Shown: piece by piece, positions 53,149 to 61,277 of the stretch
Layout of the letters: the number at the start of each line of letters is the position of its first letter
Position numbering within the stretch: position 1 is the stretch's first letter
Source: Nitrospirota bacterium
GTDB taxonomy: Bacteria; Nitrospirota; Nitrospiria; Nitrospirales; Nitrospiraceae
DNA length: 64,000 nt
Reading direction: 5' to 3'
Assembly (NCBI GenBank): GCA_004296885.1
Contig: SCVN01000007.1
Location: 124,001-188,000, forward strand
Notes under the pieces: model-generated
What the model saw: the letters and a program-made list of their open reading frames with translations, nothing else
The model's database searches: none
Told to the model about the DNA's origin: nothing
Position numbers and translations under genes: made by a program

Positions 53149-54993
53149 TCAAATTGAATACTGAAACGTCGGCTTGCCCCCGATTGCCTGCGCCAGGACG
53201 CCTTTTTTCTTGAGTTCTTCGATGATCCGGCGCGCTGCCTCATCGAAGTCCTTCGGCCCGGCGAACTGGATATCCGTGTCGGGAGGCGACTCCTCGGCCG
53301 CCTTGCTCATATGCACGGTGATGACCGGAGCCGGATGCACCAAGGTACGGATCGCTTGGGCGGCTTGCGCATAGGCCGACCCGAAGGCTTTGGTGGTGGA
53401 CACCACGATCAGCCCCGTGTCGATGAGCAGGCGGGCCACTTCGCCGTACCGGCGCGCCATCTCGTCCGTCCCGGCCTGGTCCGCTCCGGCCAGGTCCGCA
53501 TCCAGGCCGCGCCGGAGGTTTTCCCCCTCCAACAGGTAGGCATGACGACCCTCGGCCACCAGCACCGACTCCAGCTTGCGGGCCAGGAAGGACTTGCCGG
53601 TCTGCGGCGCTCCCGTGAGGAGCACCACCGCCGCCCGATGTCCGTAATGCTGCGCCCGCTCTTCCGCCCCCACTTCTCCTTTGACCCAGGCGAAATCCCT
53701 CCGCCTGGCTTCATCGCGCAGAAACTCCTGTTCGTCATGCACCAAGTCGGTGATGATGCCCCCGCCGGCGATATCATACTCGTCCACGATCACGAACCGG
53801 CCGGTCGACTCGAAGGCATAGTACGGGTCGAACGCGATCGGGGATTTCGTCCGGAGCGTCAACTCCGCCACCTGGTTTCGCTCGACGACACTCCCCCCCT
53901 GCCGTTGGTCCAAATCCGCCGTGTCGACGATCCGGTTGATCGCCGCCACCTCGCAGTCCACCTCGTGGGTGGCCAGACGAAGCTGATACTTCCGGCCGCG
54001 CTCCAACGGGCGCCGGCCCAGCCAGAACAAGTTGACCCGGAAAGAGGTGGAGACGAGCGGGATGGACTCCTGGCGGGACGCGATCTCGCCGCGCTCGATG
54101 AAAATCTGCTCGTCCAGCGTGATTCCGACGGACTGTCCGGCTGTAGCCTCGGTCGGGGACGGTTCGACGTTGAAGGCCTCTACGGATTTAATGTTGGCCG
54201 ACTTGTTGGACGGGGAGAAGACCAATCGGTCGCCGACCTTCAAGCGGCCGGCGGTCAAGCGGCCGGCGATGATCCGTCGCGCGTCGAACTTGTAGACGTC
54301 CTGGACCGGGAACCGGAGCGGTTGCTCGCGGCGGGCGGTTTCCTTGCGAAACGCCTCCAGCGTCTCAAGCACGGTCCGGCCCTGGTACCAGGCCATGTGG
54401 GTGCTGCGGGAGGCGATGTTGTCGCCGAGCTTCGCGCTCACCGGAATGACGCGCTCCGGCACCACCTTCAACTGGCCCAAGAAGTCCCGGTATTCCTTTT
54501 CGATGCCGTCGAACACGTCCTGGCGGTACCCGACCAGGTCCATCTTGTTCACTACCACCGCGACCTGCTTGACGCCCAGGAGCGACAACAGATACCCATG
54601 CTTTTTGGACTGCTCCTTCACGCCCTCCAGCGCGTCGATCAGCAGCAGGGCCGCCTCCGCGCGGGCGGCGCCGGAGATCATGTTCTTGAGAAACTCCTTG
54701 TGGCCCGGCGCGTCGATGATGATGTACTGGCGCCCCTTCCACGTGAAAAACGTGCGGGCCGTGTCGATCGTGATGCCCTGCTCCTGCTCCTCCAGGAATG
54801 CATCGAAGAGGAAGGCGTACTCGAACTCCTTGCCCTGCTGGCGGCAGATGGCCTGCACCTTCTCCAGCTTCCCATCGGGGAGCGAGCCGGTGTCGGCGTA
54901 GAGCCGCCCCAGCAGCGTGGACTTCCCATGGTCCACGTGCCCGACGATCACGATGTTCAGATTTTCCGTGGGTCTGGTTTGTACGGTCGCCAT
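53149..54993 (-). CDS. cysN: Sulfate adenylyltransferase subunit 1 fused to a divergent APS kinase domain
   Basis: 614 residues. N-terminal GTPase (CysN, about 10-235: [38 protein letters not shown]), EF-Tu-like beta domains to about 430, then an APS-kinase-like domain (CysC, about 445-614). GTP hydrolysis drives ATP sulfurylase in the CysD partner. The kinase P-loop is [14 protein letters not shown], and the usual DGDNVRxGL is EGENLRRGL, replacing the catalytic aspartate by glutamate; the usual FTGIDDPYEPP loop is missing. Because the pathway here uses APS reductase, PAPS may not be needed and the kinase may be decaying. Overlaps cysD by one base (TAATG). Confidence 0.92.
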
Positions 54994-55790
54994 TACATAT
55001 ACCCGTCTTTCCTCAGCAGCTCCATCCCGCGCCCCTCATCCTGCGCCCGTCCGGACCGCTCGGCCACCGTGGTATGGCGCAGCTCTTCAATGATGGCATC
55101 CACGGTCTTGGCCGTGGATTTGATCGGGGTGGTGCAGGGGGCGCAGCCCAGGCTGCGATACCTCATGCCGTCGCCCTTGTCGAGATAGAGGTCGATAAAG
55201 GGGATGTTCTCGTACTTGATGTATTCCCAGATGTTGATCTCCGTCCAGTCCAGGAGCGGGTGAATCCGGATGTGGGTGCCCGGCGGGAACGCGGTCTTGA
55301 ACTGATCCCAGAGCTCCGGCGGCTGATCCCTGAAATCCCAGTCGCCGTGCTTGTCGCGCGGCGAGAAGTATCGCTCCTTGGCCCTGGTGCCCTCTTCATC
55401 GGCCCGCACCCCCAAAATGATGCCCGTGTAGCCCTTCTGCTCGATCAGCTGCTTCAGCCCGTTGGTCTTGAGCGCCGTGCAGCAGGCAACCCGGCCCAAC
55501 GTATGGTTCATGCCGCCCGCGAGGGCTTCCTTGTTCTGGCCGACGACCAGGTTCAACCGCCACTCACGGGCCAGCCGGTCCCGGTACTCGATCATCGCGG
55601 GAATCTTGTAGCTGGTATCCACATGGAGCAGCGGAAACGGCACATGGCCGAAGAAAGCCTTGCGCGCCAGCCACAAGAGGACGGTCGAGTCCTTCCCCAT
55701 GGACCAGAGCATGGCCAGGTTGTCGAAATGCTTGTAGGCTTCGCGAAGAATGTAGACGCTTTGGTCTTCGAGCTGGCGGAGGTGCTTCAT
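54993..55790 (-). CDS. cysD: Sulfate adenylyltransferase subunit 2
   Basis: Catalytic ATP sulfurylase subunit making APS from sulfate and ATP; 265 residues. [22 protein letters not shown]-loop [37 protein letters not shown], and the C-terminal [13 protein letters not shown]. Its stop overlaps the cysNC start, the usual cysDN arrangement. Confidence 0.97.
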
Positions 55791-55820: not shown

Positions 55821-55926
55821 GTCGTCAAGTCTGAAAGTCTTCAAGTCGAAATAAAAAGTGGAACCCATAGGTTGCGGCATTGGCTCCGATGACTTCACGA
55901 CTTGATGAACTTTCGGACTTTCAGAC
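55821..55926. repeat. Intergenic inverted-repeat element (GTCTGAAAGTC dialect), trpD2-cysD
   Basis: GTCTGAAAGTC (55829-55839) and GACTTTCAGAC (55916-55926) form a perfect 11-bp inverted repeat; GTCGTCAAGT/ACTTGATGAAC extend it imperfectly. The right arm overlaps the TrpD2-like stop codon at 55921-55923. Confidence 0.8.
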
Positions 55927-56970
55927 ATGAATAGGTTCCTTCACAATAGCAAGTTCGGCCAGCTTCCGCGCCGCCGCGCCGCTGTCCAGCGCCTGCTGCG
56001 CCAGCGGAACGCCGGCCGAAATGGATTGGACCTTGCCGGCGGCATAGAGCAACATGGCCGCGTTCAAGACCACCCAGTCCCGCTGCCCGCCGCGCACCTG
56101 GTTGTGCAGGATGCGCCGCAACAGGGTCGCCTCCTGGTCCAGCTGCCCAGGAGGAAACCCGGACATGGATTGAAAGCTCCCCGGCGAAAGACCGCAGTCC
56201 TTGGACGTCAGCGTCAAGGGCGCGATGCGCTCGTCCCGCACCTCGAGCACCCGGGTTGCCGAGGCGATGGACAATTCCGGCTCGCCTTCCGACCCGCGGA
56301 TGATCAGCGCCCGCTTGCCGCCCAGCATGAGCAGCGCCTCGGCCGTCTTTTCGAAATAGGGGGGATGGCTCAGGCCGATCACCTGCGAGGCGGCCCGGGC
56401 CGGGTTCAGCATCTTGGCCACCGGATGGAACAGACTCCGCACCCCAAGTTCGCGCCGCAGATCCAGAAACCGGGCGACCGGCGGATGGTAGAGGGCGATA
56501 TCCAGATAGACCAATCCTTTCGCCGTCAGTTCCTCGGCCGCTTGCTTGGGCGGCAGGTCGGTCGGCAAGCCGAGCTTGGCCAGAATTTCGACGGTCCCGG
56601 GCCGCTCCGGAATGCCTTCATGCCCGTGCATCAGAATCGCAGCCCCGGCGGCGGCGGCCACGATCGCCGCGCCCGCGGATACGTGAAAGGTGTCCTGTTT
56701 CCCCGCGTACGTCGGCAAATCCACCAGCGGCAGGTGGCGCGGCACCGGCAGGGGCGGGACATACTCCCGCGCTGCCGAGGTGAAGGCCGCCAGTTCTGTG
56801 ATCGATTCCATCTTCACGCGCATGGCCAGGAGGAAGGCGCCGACCTGCGCCGGCGTGGTCTGTCCCTCGACGAGCATCCGCATCGCCTGCTTGGCCTCTT
56901 CCCAAGTCAGGTCCTTGGAAGCCTTCTGACCCTTGCCGATTTTGGCGATGAATTGCGAGAATTCCGTCAT
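55921..56970 (-). CDS. TrpD2-like (YbiB-type) anthranilate phosphoribosyltransferase homologue in a sulfate-assimilation operon
   Basis: 349 residues, nucleoside-phosphorylase-like fold: helical N-terminal domain (LTWEEAKQAMRMLVEGQTTP), then ILMHGHEGIPERPGTVEILAKLG, FHPVAKMLNPARAASQVIGLSH and ALIIRGSEGEPELS. Canonical TrpD has GTGGD in the PRPP site; here the equivalent region is PTYAGKQDTFHVSAGAA, which lacks it. E. coli YbiB, a member of this group, binds nucleic acid and is not a TrpD. No trp genes lie nearby; the neighbours are a DsrE-like gene and cysD. Confidence 0.85.
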   Translation of the reverse strand: MTEFSQFIAKIGKGQKASKDLTWEEAKQAMRMLVEGQTTPAQVGAFLLAMRVKMESITELAAFTSAAREYVPPLPVPRHLPLVDLPTYAGKQDTFHVSAGAAIVAAAAGAAILMHGHEGIPERPGTVEILAKLGLPTDLPPKQAAEELTAKGLVYLDIALYHPPVARFLDLRRELGVRSLFHPVAKMLNPARAASQVIGLSHPPYFEKTAEALLMLGGKRALIIRGSEGEPELSIASATRVLEVRDERIAPLTLTSKDCGLSPGSFQSMSGFPPGQLDQEATLLRRILHNQVRGGQRDWVVLNAAMLLYAAGKVQSISAGVPLAQQALDSGAAARKLAELAIVKEPIHV

Positions 56971-56995: not shown

Positions 56996-57409
56996 TTAAA
57001 ACGTCAGCACCTGGTCCGCCGGCGCGACCGCTTCCTTCCAGAAGGCCTCGGCCTTCTGCACCTCGTCCAGTTCGGGCAGTAGCTGATCCACGGTGATCTC
57101 GAAGTACTCGATCGTCTCGCGGCAGATCGAGAGCTTCACGTCCCCCGCCTCTTTGACCTCACGCAACACGGCCGGCACATCGAGCCGTTTCCGCTCCCGC
57201 AGCAAGTCGCGCACCTTCGACTCGCGTCCCTTGTAGGCCTCCGAAAACGTCAACTGCTTCACTTTCTCGTGCGTCAATTTGGACGCCGCTTCGTCCCGAA
57301 ACAACACGCTGACCTGCGCGCCGGACGCAGCGGCGATGCGGATCCATTCGCAGGCCTGCAACAGGTTGTTGTAGCTTCCCCCGGTCACGATCACGGCCAG
57401 CTTCTTCAT
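56996..57409 (-). CDS. DsrE/DsrF-like protein in the sulfate-assimilation operon
   Basis: 137 residues, cytoplasmic. MKKLAVIVTGGSYNNLLQAC at the N-terminus and SICRETIEYF near residues 94-103 carry the fold and conserved cysteine of DsrE-type proteins, small sulfur-relay or nucleotide-binding proteins. Between cysH and the TrpD2-like gene on the same strand. A persulfide carrier working with the TusA domain of the sulfite reductase fusion is a reasonable idea but is inference only. Confidence 0.75.
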   Translation of the reverse strand: MKKLAVIVTGGSYNNLLQACEWIRIAAASGAQVSVLFRDEAASKLTHEKVKQLTFSEAYKGRESKVRDLLRERKRLDVPAVLREVKEAGDVKLSICRETIEYFEITVDQLLPELDEVQKAEAFWKEAVAPADQVLTF

Positions 57410-57426: not shown

Positions 57427-57509
57427 AAATGATGAATGCTGAATAATGAGTGATGAATGACGGTTCTGGTTGAATTCATCATTCAGCGTTCCGCATTCAG
57501 CACTATTTG
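57427..57509. repeat. Intergenic inverted-repeat element (GATGAATG dialect), cysH-dsrE
   Basis: Left arm 57427-57463 is AAATGATGAATGCTGAATAA and GTGATGAATGACGG. Right arm 57473-57509 is AATTCATCATTCAGCG and CCGCATTCAGCACTATTT. It overlaps the cysH stop codon (57503-57505). Confidence 0.75.
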
Positions 57510-58225
57510 TGGAGCCCACACTCGGTTTTCGCGAAGTTCTGCCACCGGCCGGATCGCGGATCGGCCCCGGGCATGACCGGAGCCGTGCAATGGGTGCAAC
57601 CGATGCTGGGGTAGTTTTGGTCATGCAGCCGGTTATAGGGCACCTCGTAGACCTTGATGTAGGCCCAGACCTCCGCCACGCTCCAGCGGGCCAGCGGGTT
57701 GAACTTGACCAACTGAAATTTCTTGTCCCATTCCACCAGTCCCGCGTTCGCGCGGGTCGGCGCCTGATCGCGCCGGATGCCGGTGATCCAGGCCTCGTAG
57801 CCGCCCAACACCCGGGTCAGCGGTTCGACCTTGCGCAATTGGCAACATTGGTCCGGCTGCTTGGCCCAGAGCTCCGCTCCGTATTGAGCCGCCTGCTGCT
57901 CGGGCGTCAGCAGCGACTTCACCTGGATCACTTGCGCGGGACGCAATCCGTATTGGGCCGCGATTCGGTCCCGCACCTCGTGGGTTTCCGGAAACAGAAA
58001 GTCCGTATCCAGGTAGAAGAGGGGCGCGTTCGAGTCCAACCGGTGGATCATGTCCACCAACGCCACGTCTTCCGCCCCGAAGCTACAGGCCAACACGATA
58101 TGCCCGCGATATCGCTCTAGAGCGTAGGCGAGCACCTCTTGCGGCTGCTTGGACTCGAAGGAGTCGCTCAGCGCCTTCAATTCCTCATCGGAGGGTCTGG
58201 TCCGGACTTCCGTCTTGTCGGTCAC
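57503..58225 (-). CDS. cysH: Adenosine-5'-phosphosulfate reductase
   Basis: Reduces APS to sulfite with thioredoxin; 240 residues from GTG 58225. IVLACSFGAEDVALVDM (nucleotide loop), FYLDTDFLFPET, the cluster cysteines CC in QPDQCCQLRKVEPL and CxxC in IGCTHCTAPV (CC-x~80-CxxC binds [4Fe-4S]), GIRRDQAPTRA, and the C-terminal catalytic ECGLHK. The four cluster cysteines define an APS reductase, not a PAPS reductase. Eight bases after the sulfite reductase gene. A longer frame upstream lies antisense-like inside that gene and is not coding. Confidence 0.95.
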   Translation of the reverse strand: MTDKTEVRTRPSDEELKALSDSFESKQPQEVLAYALERYRGHIVLACSFGAEDVALVDMIHRLDSNAPLFYLDTDFLFPETHEVRDRIAAQYGLRPAQVIQVKSLLTPEQQAAQYGAELWAKQPDQCCQLRKVEPLTRVLGGYEAWITGIRRDQAPTRANAGLVEWDKKFQLVKFNPLARWSVAEVWAYIKVYEVPYNRLHDQNYPSIGCTHCTAPVMPGADPRSGRWQNFAKTECGLHK

Positions 58226-58233
58226 GATTGTCC

Positions 58234-60741
58234 CTAGCCCTCGACCTTTTCCACCAGCACTTTGAAGTGGGCGGCCGTCGGCTCCAACGGCTCTTCCAAC
58301 AGAATCTTGTGTCCGTCGTTGCGCAAGCTCATGGGCACGTTTTTGATCGGCTCGCCCGCGTCCAGCCAGACCTCCAGCCGCTCGCCTGCCTCCATCATTT
58401 CCAGCTTCAACTTGGTCTTCACATAATTGAGCGGGCAGGCCACGCCGCGGAGATCGTAGACCGCCGCCTCCGGCCCGGCTGCAACGGGTTGGGAGGGAGG
58501 CTCGGCCTCCGCCGCCTGCATTGCGGATACCTCGGCCTCGCCGGCTTGCGCCAGCTTCAAATCCTTGCCGATCTGCTCGGTCGCCGCCCGGCACACTTCC
58601 ACGAATCCCCGGGCGAAGGCAATCTTGGCCTGCGCGAATTCCGGGCTGCTGTCCTTCTGGCCCAAGTCACCCGCCTGCACCCCCAGGTTCTTGTACCGGG
58701 CCGGCACGATGCTGCGCTGGCCCAACCGCCGCTCGAACTCGGCAAAGGTTTCGGCATCCGTGGCCGGATCCAAGCCCTCGGTCACCAGCAAGGCCTTGGC
58801 CGCGGCCAGCACGGCCCGGTAGGATTTGTTGACCGAGACGGAATACTGGTGCTTCTCGGCCAGCAACTTGGCCTGATAAAGTTCCTGCTCCGCCTCGAGG
58901 ATCCGATCGCCGATCATCTCCAAGGCGCCGCCGGCGCATTCGCCCGGCCCCAGATCCTCCAGGATGAACTCCTCTTCCCCTTCCCAGTCGTAATAAAAGG
59001 TCTGGTCCTCCTCGAACGCCGGCACGATCGTATAGGGAATCAGCTCTTCTTTCAGCGCAACCTTGCCAGCCCGCGTGATGAAGGAAGGGAGGCTCTCACC
59101 CTGGCGCCGGTCGCGGCGATAGACCGAGAGCAGATGCGTGATGGCGGCCGGCACGCTCTTGGCCGGCAATTTCACGGTCATCTGGCCGATCTTGGCCGTC
59201 CCGTTCACCTGCCCGCCCAGGTGCAACTCATAGTGAGGCGCCACATGGTCTCCCAGACGCTTGCCCACGCCATGCAAGCCGATCGTCGCGATGTGGTGTT
59301 GGGCACAGGAATTGTGGCAGCCGCTGATCTTGACGCTGACGTCCTTCAAATCCTCGGGCACACGGCCGGGCGGGAAGACTTCCGCCATGGCCCGCGCCAA
59401 ACCCTTCGACGAGGTGATGCCCAGACCGCAGGTGTCGGTACCGGGGCAGGCGATGATGTCTTCAACCAACTCCGCGCCCGGATCGCCTAATCCCTGCGAA
59501 ACCAGGTCTTCGTAGAGGGCCGCCAACCTCGCCTCCGGCACCCACCGCAATACCAGATTTTGATTGATCGTGGTCCGCAAGTTCCCGTTTGAATAGTCCT
59601 CCGCCAGATCCGTGACGAACTGCATCTGCCGGGCGGTGAGGTCGCCCATCTGGAGCTTGATTGCGGCCACCGCATAGCCCTGCTGCTTCTGGAGCACCAC
59701 GTTGGTCCGTTTCCACATCTGATAGGGCGTTTCAGCGACCCCATGGCCGTTGCCCGGTGCTCCGTTGCCATTGCCATTGCCGTTTCCATTGCCCGCAGAG
59801 GAGGACGAGGTCGGCATGATGAGGGGCACCGGCTCGTCGGCATGCGCGAGCAGCTTGATGGGGCCGTGATCTGGCCTGGCGTGGCCCAGACTCACATAGG
59901 CCTCTTCCCAGCGCCGCTTGAACTCCTCGAAGCCCAGCTTGTCGATCACGAACTTCATCCGGGCCTTGTTGCGGTTCTTGCGGTTCCCCAGCGTATCGAA
60001 GACTTTGATGACCGCCTCGATCGTGGGGATCAATTCGTTCATCGGAACGAACTCGCGCAACAGCTGCGCGATGCGCGGGGCCGAGCCGAGCCCGCCCCCG
60101 ACGACCATACGGAATCCGATGGTTCCGTCCTCGCGCCTGGCCGCCAGAAGTCCCACGTCGTGAATCGGCGTCAAGGCGCAGTCGTGCCGGCAGCCGGAGA
60201 AGGCGATTTTGAACTTCCGCGGCAGGCTCTGGTTGAGCGGGTTCCGCAAGAGATGGAACGCCACGGTTTTGGCATAGGGCGTGACGTCGAACACCTCGCC
60301 CTGGCAGACGCCGGCCAAGTGGCAGGCCGTCACGTTCCGCACTGTGTTGGCGCAGGCCTCCCTGGTCGTCAGCCCCACTTCGGCCAGTCCGCGCATCACC
60401 GTGCCGACATCCTTGAGTTCGACGAAGTGGAGCTGGATGTCCTGGCGGGTCGTGACGTGACCGACGCCGGTCCCGTACCGGTCGGCCAGTTCGGCCACCC
60501 GTCGCAGCTGATTGGCATTCAGTCCGCCGAAGGGGATCTTAATCCGTACCATTTGCACACCGGGCTGGCGCTGCCCGTAAATGCCATGTTGCAACCGGAA
60601 GGGCTTGAACAGGTCGTTGGACACATCTCCCGCCTGCAGCCGTTGGGCTTCGCCTTCGAAGGTTTCGATCTCTTCGAGAATGTCAGGCGGAATGGGGGCG
60701 GTCTGTATGGCCACCGGCTGCAGGGTCCGTGGAGTACTCAT
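58234..60741 (-). CDS. Sulfite reductase hemoprotein fused to a helical domain and a TusA domain
   Basis: Ferredoxin-type assimilatory sulfite (or nitrite) reductase making sulfide; 835 residues from ATG 60741. Two half-repeats: residues 50-300 and 340-570. The canonical siroheme-[4Fe-4S] motif is in the second half (C432-x5-C438, C475-x3-C479: ACPGTDTCGLG, SGCHNSCAQHH). The first half has the same set at the same spacing (C140-x5-C146, C184-x3-C188: ACHLAGVC, SGCRHDCAL). A Gly-Asn linker (residues 317-334) joins them. Residues 605-735 are helical and HEPN-like (VNKSYRAVLAAAKALL). Residues 760-835 are TusA-like with the sulfur cysteine in RGVACPLNY. A TusA fusion suggests direct handling of the sulfide product. 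Confidence 0.92.
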   Translation of the reverse strand: MSTPRTLQPVAIQTAPIPPDILEEIETFEGEAQRLQAGDVSNDLFKPFRLQHGIYGQRQPGVQMVRIKIPFGGLNANQLRRVAELADRYGTGVGHVTTRQDIQLHFVELKDVGTVMRGLAEVGLTTREACANTVRNVTACHLAGVCQGEVFDVTPYAKTVAFHLLRNPLNQSLPRKFKIAFSGCRHDCALTPIHDVGLLAARREDGTIGFRMVVGGGLGSAPRIAQLLREFVPMNELIPTIEAVIKVFDTLGNRKNRNKARMKFVIDKLGFEEFKRRWEEAYVSLGHARPDHGPIKLLAHADEPVPLIMPTSSSSAGNGNGNGNGNGAPGNGHGVAETPYQMWKRTNVVLQKQQGYAVAAIKLQMGDLTARQMQFVTDLAEDYSNGNLRTTINQNLVLRWVPEARLAALYEDLVSQGLGDPGAELVEDIIACPGTDTCGLGITSSKGLARAMAEVFPPGRVPEDLKDVSVKISGCHNSCAQHHIATIGLHGVGKRLGDHVAPHYELHLGGQVNGTAKIGQMTVKLPAKSVPAAITHLLSVYRRDRRQGESLPSFITRAGKVALKEELIPYTIVPAFEEDQTFYYDWEGEEEFILEDLGPGECAGGALEMIGDRILEAEQELYQAKLLAEKHQYSVSVNKSYRAVLAAAKALLVTEGLDPATDAETFAEFERRLGQRSIVPARYKNLGVQAGDLGQKDSSPEFAQAKIAFARGFVEVCRAATEQIGKDLKLAQAGEAEVSAMQAAEAEPPSQPVAAGPEAAVYDLRGVACPLNYVKTKLKLEMMEAGERLEVWLDAGEPIKNVPMSLRNDGHKILLEEPLEPTAAHFKVLVEKVEG
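59762..59795. repeat. Hexanucleotide (ATTGCC) microsatellite inside sulfite reductase linker
   Basis: Imperfect repeats of CCATTG/CCGTTG encode alternating Gly-Asn residues in the linker between the two reductase halves. The six-base unit keeps the frame when its copy number changes, so linker length could vary among strains. Confidence 0.6.
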
Positions 60742-60752
60742 GAGAATTGCTC

Positions 60753-60831
60753 CATTTGAAAATTCGAGCATGAACGATTTGAAGTAGTCGTCGTCAATCG
60801 ACCATCCCAACGATCGTCAATGATTCAAATG
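60753..60831. repeat. Intergenic inverted-repeat element, rrf2-sulfite reductase
   Basis: CATTTGAA (60753-60760) and TTCAAATG (60824-60831) pair perfectly; GTCGTCAATCG and CGATCGTCAAT between them use the CGTCAAT word of the queE-pepA element. Sits between the regulator stop codon and the reductase start. Confidence 0.6.
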
Positions 60832-61277
60832 TGGTACATCAGGGTCCGTTCACGGTCAAGTTGCTGATGGCGTTCTGCCAGCTCGCGAAGCGTCACGGCA
60901 CTCAACACGCCCAGTTCCGCCTGGCGGACCCGTTCCCAAACATCGGCCAAAAGCAAGTCCGGCCTCGATGGCCCCTTGATGTGACGCCCCGTCCCTCGAT
61001 GGCCGCTCGGCGCCGAAAGGGTACCGTCCAACGCTTCCACGATGTCCGCCAGTGAAATTTCCTCCGGTAGTTTGCCCAAAAGATAGCCTCCCTGGGCACC
61101 GCGGAGGCTGTCCACCAGCCCTGCGTTCTTCATCGCGTTCAGGACCTGCTCAAGAAAACGGAGCGGAATAGCCTGACGCTTGGCAATCGTCTTTGCCTGG
61201 ATGGGCGAGGTGCCGTCATTCAAGGCCAAATCCAGCGCTGCAAGCACTCCATATGTGGCCTTCAACGAGATTTTCAT
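60825..61277 (-). CDS. Rrf2-family transcriptional regulator (CymR-like)
   Basis: 150 residues. Winged-helix N-terminus (MKISLKATYGVLAALDLALN), recognition region IPLRFLEQVLNAMKNAGLVDSLRGAQGGYLL with the Rrf2 signature RGAQGGY. The IscR/NsrR cluster cysteines (three around residues 90-110) are absent: the loop there is SAPSGHRGTGRH. It is therefore an Fe-S-independent type like CymR, which controls cysteine and sulfur assimilation. First gene of the sulfate operon; a perfect inverted repeat lies in its own leader, suggesting autoregulation. Confidence 0.9.
   Translation of the reverse strand: MKISLKATYGVLAALDLALNDGTSPIQAKTIAKRQAIPLRFLEQVLNAMKNAGLVDSLRGAQGGYLLGKLPEEISLADIVEALDGTLSAPSGHRGTGRHIKGPSRPDLLLADVWERVRQAELGVLSAVTLRELAERHQQLDRERTLMYHI

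Follow-up and report, generated by a model that had tools for sequence, protein, structure and literature searches.

A Nitrospirota assimilatory-type sulfite reductase with complete cluster cysteine sets in both halves and a proposed second, siroheme-less [4Fe-4S] site

A single gene of a Nitrospirota bacterium, here called P0001, encodes an assimilatory-type sulfite reductase (SiR) in which each of two homologous halves carries the complete canonical CX5CXnCX3C cysteine set. We lean toward the reading that the protein has one siroheme-[4Fe-4S] catalytic centre and, retained in the first half, a second [4Fe-4S] cluster predicted to lack siroheme. In the textbook description of the aSir/NirA enzymes the cluster motif has been lost from the first half (PMC10229431), whereas in the P0001 family it has not, 137 of 138 distinct homologues from Nitrospirota having all four first-half cysteines. 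P0001 is nevertheless a variant of aSir/NirA, filed there by ancestry despite its complete first-half set. No published description of the retained cysteine set or of the TusA fusion discussed below was found in open PubMed Central papers. The gene and its features lie as follows in the window, the whole 64,000-nucleotide stretch of DNA that was analysed:

58234..60741, minus strand: assimilatory-type sulfite reductase gene, P0001, 835 amino acids
59902..60579, minus strand: first SiR half, residues 55-280 (PF03460 at 55-122, PF01077 at 131-280)
60178..60324, minus strand: C140-x5-C146-x37-C184-x3-C188, the four cysteines of the first half, where a second [4Fe-4S] site without siroheme is proposed
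59047..59721, minus strand: second SiR half, residues 341-565 (Pfam and repeat alignment)
59305..59448, minus strand: C432-x5-C438-x36-C475-x3-C479, the four cysteines of the second half, assigned by homology to the catalytic siroheme-coupled [4Fe-4S]
58930..58950, minus strand: GPGECAG motif closing the SiR core, its C602 invariant in the 138 homologues
58759..58905, minus strand: HEPN-like helical region (PF05168, E = 6e-6, residues 613-661)
58246..58458, minus strand: TusA sulfur-carrier domain, residues 762-832 (PF01206, E = 6e-15)

P0001 runs from an ATG at 60741 to a stop codon at 58234-58236 and is laid out as first SiR half, Gly/Asn-rich linker, second SiR half, GECAG motif, HEPN-like helical region and TusA domain. 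Pfam finds two stretches each of PF01077 (NIR_SIR) and PF03460 (the ferredoxin-like half domain). The first half is made up of a ferredoxin-like half domain and a NIR_SIR 4Fe-4S domain and bears R99, R135, K176 and K178. That the two NIR_SIR halves are repeats of one another is borne out by profile-profile alignment (E = 1.2e-22 at 23% identity), in which C140 pairs with C432, C146 with C438, C184 with C475, and C188 with C479. On re-checking, the open reading frame (on the minus strand), its coordinates, and the place and spacing of each of the eight cysteines agreed exactly with the first-pass annotation, whose claim of a complete set in both halves holds. Its description of the chain was incomplete, missing the HEPN-like and TusA domains and the invariant GECAG cysteine. 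Against the NCBIfam equivalogs P0001 scores 140 for CysI (cut-off 757), 294 for the NirA family (cut-off 523) and 254 for ferredoxin-nitrite reductase (cut-off 594), each time short of the threshold. A frameshift or assembly artefact was considered and discarded, as the frame is free of stops and relatives carry the gene intact.

We examined conservation in the 138 homologues, which share about 41-95% identity with P0001. C140 and C184 are present in all of them and C146 and C188 in all but one, with corresponding counts of 33 and 32 among the 33 representatives below 80% identity; the second-half residues C432, C438, C475 and C479 are found in 138 of 138. The lone exception (L134) has serine for C146 and histidine for C188, giving Cys-Ser-Cys-His, and two members (L161 and L162) have all four first-half cysteines with one additional residue separating the last two. 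Conservation across the homologues excludes chance or the oddity of a single genome as the source of the first-half set. Variability of these cysteines among close homologues, which the first-pass annotation had named as the finding that would speak against it, was looked for, and the four are near-invariant. In a first set of relatives the protein search found a match in 41 of 41 genomes, though in one of them (G018) it hit only a remoter paralogue; in a wider set, all within Nitrospirota, 269 of 397 genomes matched at E <= 1e-60. The comparison sequences from outside Nitrospirota come from plasmid and viral records; scans of viral contigs yielded one Bacteroidota-like relative, found twice, and no further relatives beyond it. 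A complete first-half set may well occur in other phyla too.

Some unusual gene forms were also noted. In Nitrospira sp. RSF6 (L075) the SiR gene is represented by two adjacent open frames of 310 and 547 amino acids, owing either to an early stop codon or to an error in the sequencing. Certain other Nitrospirota proteins (L152, L154-L157 and L167), whose open frames reach about 1,100 amino acids, carry SiR-like repeats, form a separate long branch, and have Cys-x2-Cys in place of C184-x3-C188.

Across the superfamily the first-half set decays by grades, from complete through three cysteines to none. The NirA proteins of Nitrospirota and haloarchaea retain the equivalents of C140, C184 and C188, and a three-cysteine cluster in their first half is possible; the generalization that only the C-terminal half keeps its cysteines is thus too absolute. 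At the C146 position, NirA proteins L158, L159, L160, L163-L166, L169, L170, L179 and L189 have Ser, Asp, Ala, Gly, Asn or Ile. In Bacteroidota homologues that possess the HEPN-like region the first-half positions read Ser/Asp/Ser/Ser or similar, and the set is likewise lost from the proteobacterial aSir and CysI sequences examined. The ligands tend to change together: none of the four survives in the Bacteroidota proteins, and in both Thermus and L134 C146 and C188 have jointly become Ser and His.

These comparisons bear on whether the first-half cysteines hold a cluster at all, as they might instead help the protein to fold, form a disulfide pair or bind another metal such as zinc, as a relic of the duplication. 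The NirA proteins with three cysteines and a replaced C146 indicate that homologues can do without all four, and the Bacteroidota, proteobacterial and CysI enzymes keep the second-half cysteines and the pocket bases with no first-half set. We nonetheless judge a role without a cluster unlikely, given that the spacing is exactly that of a cluster motif and that the four cysteines occur together in all but one of the homologues. Moreover, the cytoplasm is a reducing compartment, and we know of no role for four thiols so arranged in the absence of a metal. A second cluster is plausible because the first-half cysteines are complete and near-invariant, and a bare cluster would be the most economical use of four residues so exactly spaced and so well kept. 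Conservation of thiols would not by itself prove a cluster, as C130 and C602 are likewise invariant in the 138 homologues and lie outside both sets. The earlier suggestion of two cofactors or a vestigial second site is supported in part, a second cluster being plausible; "vestigial" fits poorly with near-invariance.

Whether siroheme accompanies this second cluster can be judged from the pocket residues. In the solved enzymes the positive residues of one half or protomer mainly hold the siroheme and the other holds the cluster; in Fsr, for example, the cluster is anchored by one protomer and the siroheme mainly by positive residues of the other (PMC10229431). R99, R135, K176 and K178 of the first half are invariant in all 138 homologues, and the pocket for the second-half cluster is therefore complete. 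Their second-half counterparts are N393, E427, D467 and S469; arginine or lysine is never found at 393, 427 or 467 and occurs at 469 in 15 of the 138. Because the counterparts that would serve the first-half centre are mostly non-basic, a second catalytic siroheme is unlikely, and the proposal of two equivalent siroheme centres is unsupported, the second half being without the basic pocket residues that a second site would need.

A chain with two siroheme-[4Fe-4S] centres as in DsrAB, one of them catalytic and the other structural (possibly containing siroheme or sirohydrochlorin), is a rival proposal. The cysteine sets are complete in both halves, and DsrAB shows that an inactive second tetrapyrrole site can persist, DsrB helping to hold the structural tetrapyrrole (PMC10229431). 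In addition, two mostly conserved bases of the second half, K471 and R389, are near the would-be second pocket. In our alignment, however, DsrB has Arg, Ser, His and Arg at the pocket positions where P0001 has Asn, Glu, Asp and Ser, and three of these four positions are never basic among the homologues, so that we find this arrangement doubtful. A weak or non-catalytic siroheme at the second site may still be entertained, considering the occasional basic residue at 469 and the retention of K471 and R389. AlphaFold models of the full chain and of the core are too weak at the sites of interest, most of the cysteine loops having a pLDDT under 50 (pTM 0.48), and Foldseek confirms the NirA/SiR fold and nothing beyond for the SiR core.

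Our preferred arrangement, one siroheme centre and a bare second cluster, would have come about as follows. The ancient duplication and fusion behind all aSir/NirA enzymes would have led to a single-chain assimilatory sulfite reductase in Nitrospirota, whose first half kept its four cluster ligands after the duplication. Catalysis would take place at one centre, with the second-half cysteines holding the siroheme-coupled [4Fe-4S] cluster and R99, R135, K176 and K178 of the first half holding siroheme and sulfite; these roles follow from homology to the solved aSirs. A second [4Fe-4S] cluster would most likely sit on the first-half cysteines, at the pseudo-symmetric position, siroheme there being absent or at least non-catalytic, and this cluster might act as an electron relay or stabilize the fold. 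The analysis shows directly the sequence and its conservation, the pairing of the repeat positions, the family-wide lack of three of the four bases, the operon and the halves tree; from these we infer the occupancy of the second site, its lack of siroheme and its role.

The identities of nearby genes were also considered:

60825..61277, minus strand: Rrf2-family regulator, upstream of SiR (beside the SiR gene in 80 of 80 fetched loci)
57503..58225, minus strand: cysH, (P)APS reductase (starts 8 bases past the SiR stop; 76 of 80 loci)
56996..57409, minus strand: DsrE-like protein (in only 4 of 80 fetched loci)
55921..56970, minus strand: TrpD-like glycosyltransferase family 3 protein (74 of 80 loci; no obvious role in the operon)
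54993..55790, minus strand: cysD, sulfate adenylyltransferase small subunit
53149..54993, minus strand: cysNC, sulfate adenylyltransferase large subunit with a fused APS-kinase-like domain

The Rrf2, SiR, cysH, TrpD-like, cysD and cysNC genes are conserved neighbours in most of the 80 loci. With cysH, cysD and cysNC, the operon is assimilatory and fits a six-electron reduction of sulfite to sulfide. No second siroheme-type (NIR_SIR) reductase was found in the genome, P0001 being the only one, and a uroporphyrinogen methyltransferase is present. Some 5 kb from that methyltransferase gene lies a second, TusA-like stretch (G000:C23:226542-226766 and 231312-232025).

The C-terminal part of P0001 raises the question of where the sulfur goes. 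The GPGECAG-type motif with C602 is also present in Bacteroidota homologues and in Thermus, where it forms the very C-terminus. The HEPN-like region, whose predicted helices reach about residue 741, has a Foldseek match to the HEPN structure 2hsb. The TusA domain, which Foldseek matches to E. coli TusA, has its active-site cysteine, C769, in a CPxN motif. C769 is kept wherever the domain is present; several Nitrospirota members and Thermus are without TusA. Together, C602 and C769 suggest sulfur transfer on the enzyme itself. P0001 might then be a sulfur-delivering SiR, in which C602 and the fused TusA accept active-site sulfur as a protein-bound persulfide, in a hand-off somewhat like that from DsrAB to DsrC, and the extra cluster tunes the electron supply. 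The invariance of C602, the retention of the TusA cysteine and the DsrE-like gene adjacent in this operon point in this direction. Against it, the DsrE-like gene is restricted to a few of the loci and the TusA domain is dispensed with in several members. Furthermore, an arginine where DsrA has threonine is a mark of aSir-type six-electron reduction to free sulfide (PMC10229431), and R99, which lines up with the threonine of DsrA in our alignment, appears to be that arginine. We therefore regard sulfur delivery as rather improbable, although it could be an add-on, compatible with one siroheme and a second cluster. Less probable still, and at present quite remote, is the combination of two working metal centres with a persulfide passed from C602 to the protein's own TusA in place of free sulfide, which would make P0001 a single-polypeptide, assimilatory counterpart of DsrAB-DsrC-TusA.

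The ancestry of the protein was approached with a quick tree of the separate halves, the four cysteine columns having been left out. The first halves form one group (SH-aLRT 81, which is modest) and the second halves another (96), with the ordinary aSir/NirA halves, and DsrA and DsrB branch together, away from both. Because its halves group with those of aSir/NirA and apart from DsrA and DsrB, we place P0001, on this sequence evidence, in the aSir/NirA line and do not consider it a recent DsrA-DsrB fusion. The earlier likening to a DsrA+DsrB pair compressed into one chain survives as an analogy only. An actual fusion of DsrA and DsrB is excluded by the halves tree, by the motif type, and by the lack of a ferredoxin insertion and of DsrC: Pfam finds no inserted Dsr-type ferredoxin (Fer4) domain in P0001, and a search of the genome for DsrC with PF04358, which does detect the E. 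coli control, comes up empty. Retention of the first-half set from the duplicated ancestor, as opposed to later gain, is the simpler reading, and we prefer it because the same four positions are present in second halves, AsrC and DsrA in the alignment. The preference does not come from the full-length tree, on which neither a clade holding every complete set (p-AU 0.181) nor one uniting the two Cys-Ser-Cys-His lineages, L134 and Thermus (p-AU 0.161), is rejected.

Nitrospira are major nitrifiers. The Nitrospirota enzymes, almost all of which keep the set, together with related enzymes having three cysteines and others having none, form a natural gradation between two cysteine sets and a single one. 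According to published accounts the assimilatory line lost one cluster-siroheme site when the ancestral sulfite reductase was duplicated and fused (PMC10229431), and with this gradation one can test in living enzymes whether the pocket went first and the cluster later.

Among known systems, P0001 resembles DsrAB in that both homologous halves carry a cluster motif and just one has a full catalytic pocket. It differs in being a single chain where DsrAB has separate alpha and beta subunits, in having the aSir-type CX5CXnCX3C in both halves where DsrB, the catalytic half, has CXnCCX3C (PMC10229431, and in the DsrB sequences examined), and in having arginine at the DsrA threonine position. With aSir, CysI and NirA it shares two fused halves, the second-half CX5CXnCX3C and the first-half Arg/Arg/Lys/Lys pocket, but it has in addition a complete first-half cysteine set and the fused HEPN-like and TusA domains. 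The NirA proteins of Nitrospirota and haloarchaea (L158, L166, L169, L170, L179, L189 and others) share three first-half cysteines with it; C146 is replaced, and those aligned over the C-terminal part have neither GECAG nor TusA. The "nitrite/sulfite reductase" of Thermus oshimai (WP_015065284.1, L173), at 42% identity, has the common core and the GECA C-terminus, and its gene adjoins PAPS reductase and siroheme genes, but its first half reads Cys-Ser-Cys-His and the chain stops at GECAV, without HEPN or TusA. Fsr and AsrC have the same cysteine motif per repeat as P0001 but a single repeat per chain, and the homodimeric Fsr models the state before fusion (PMC10229431).
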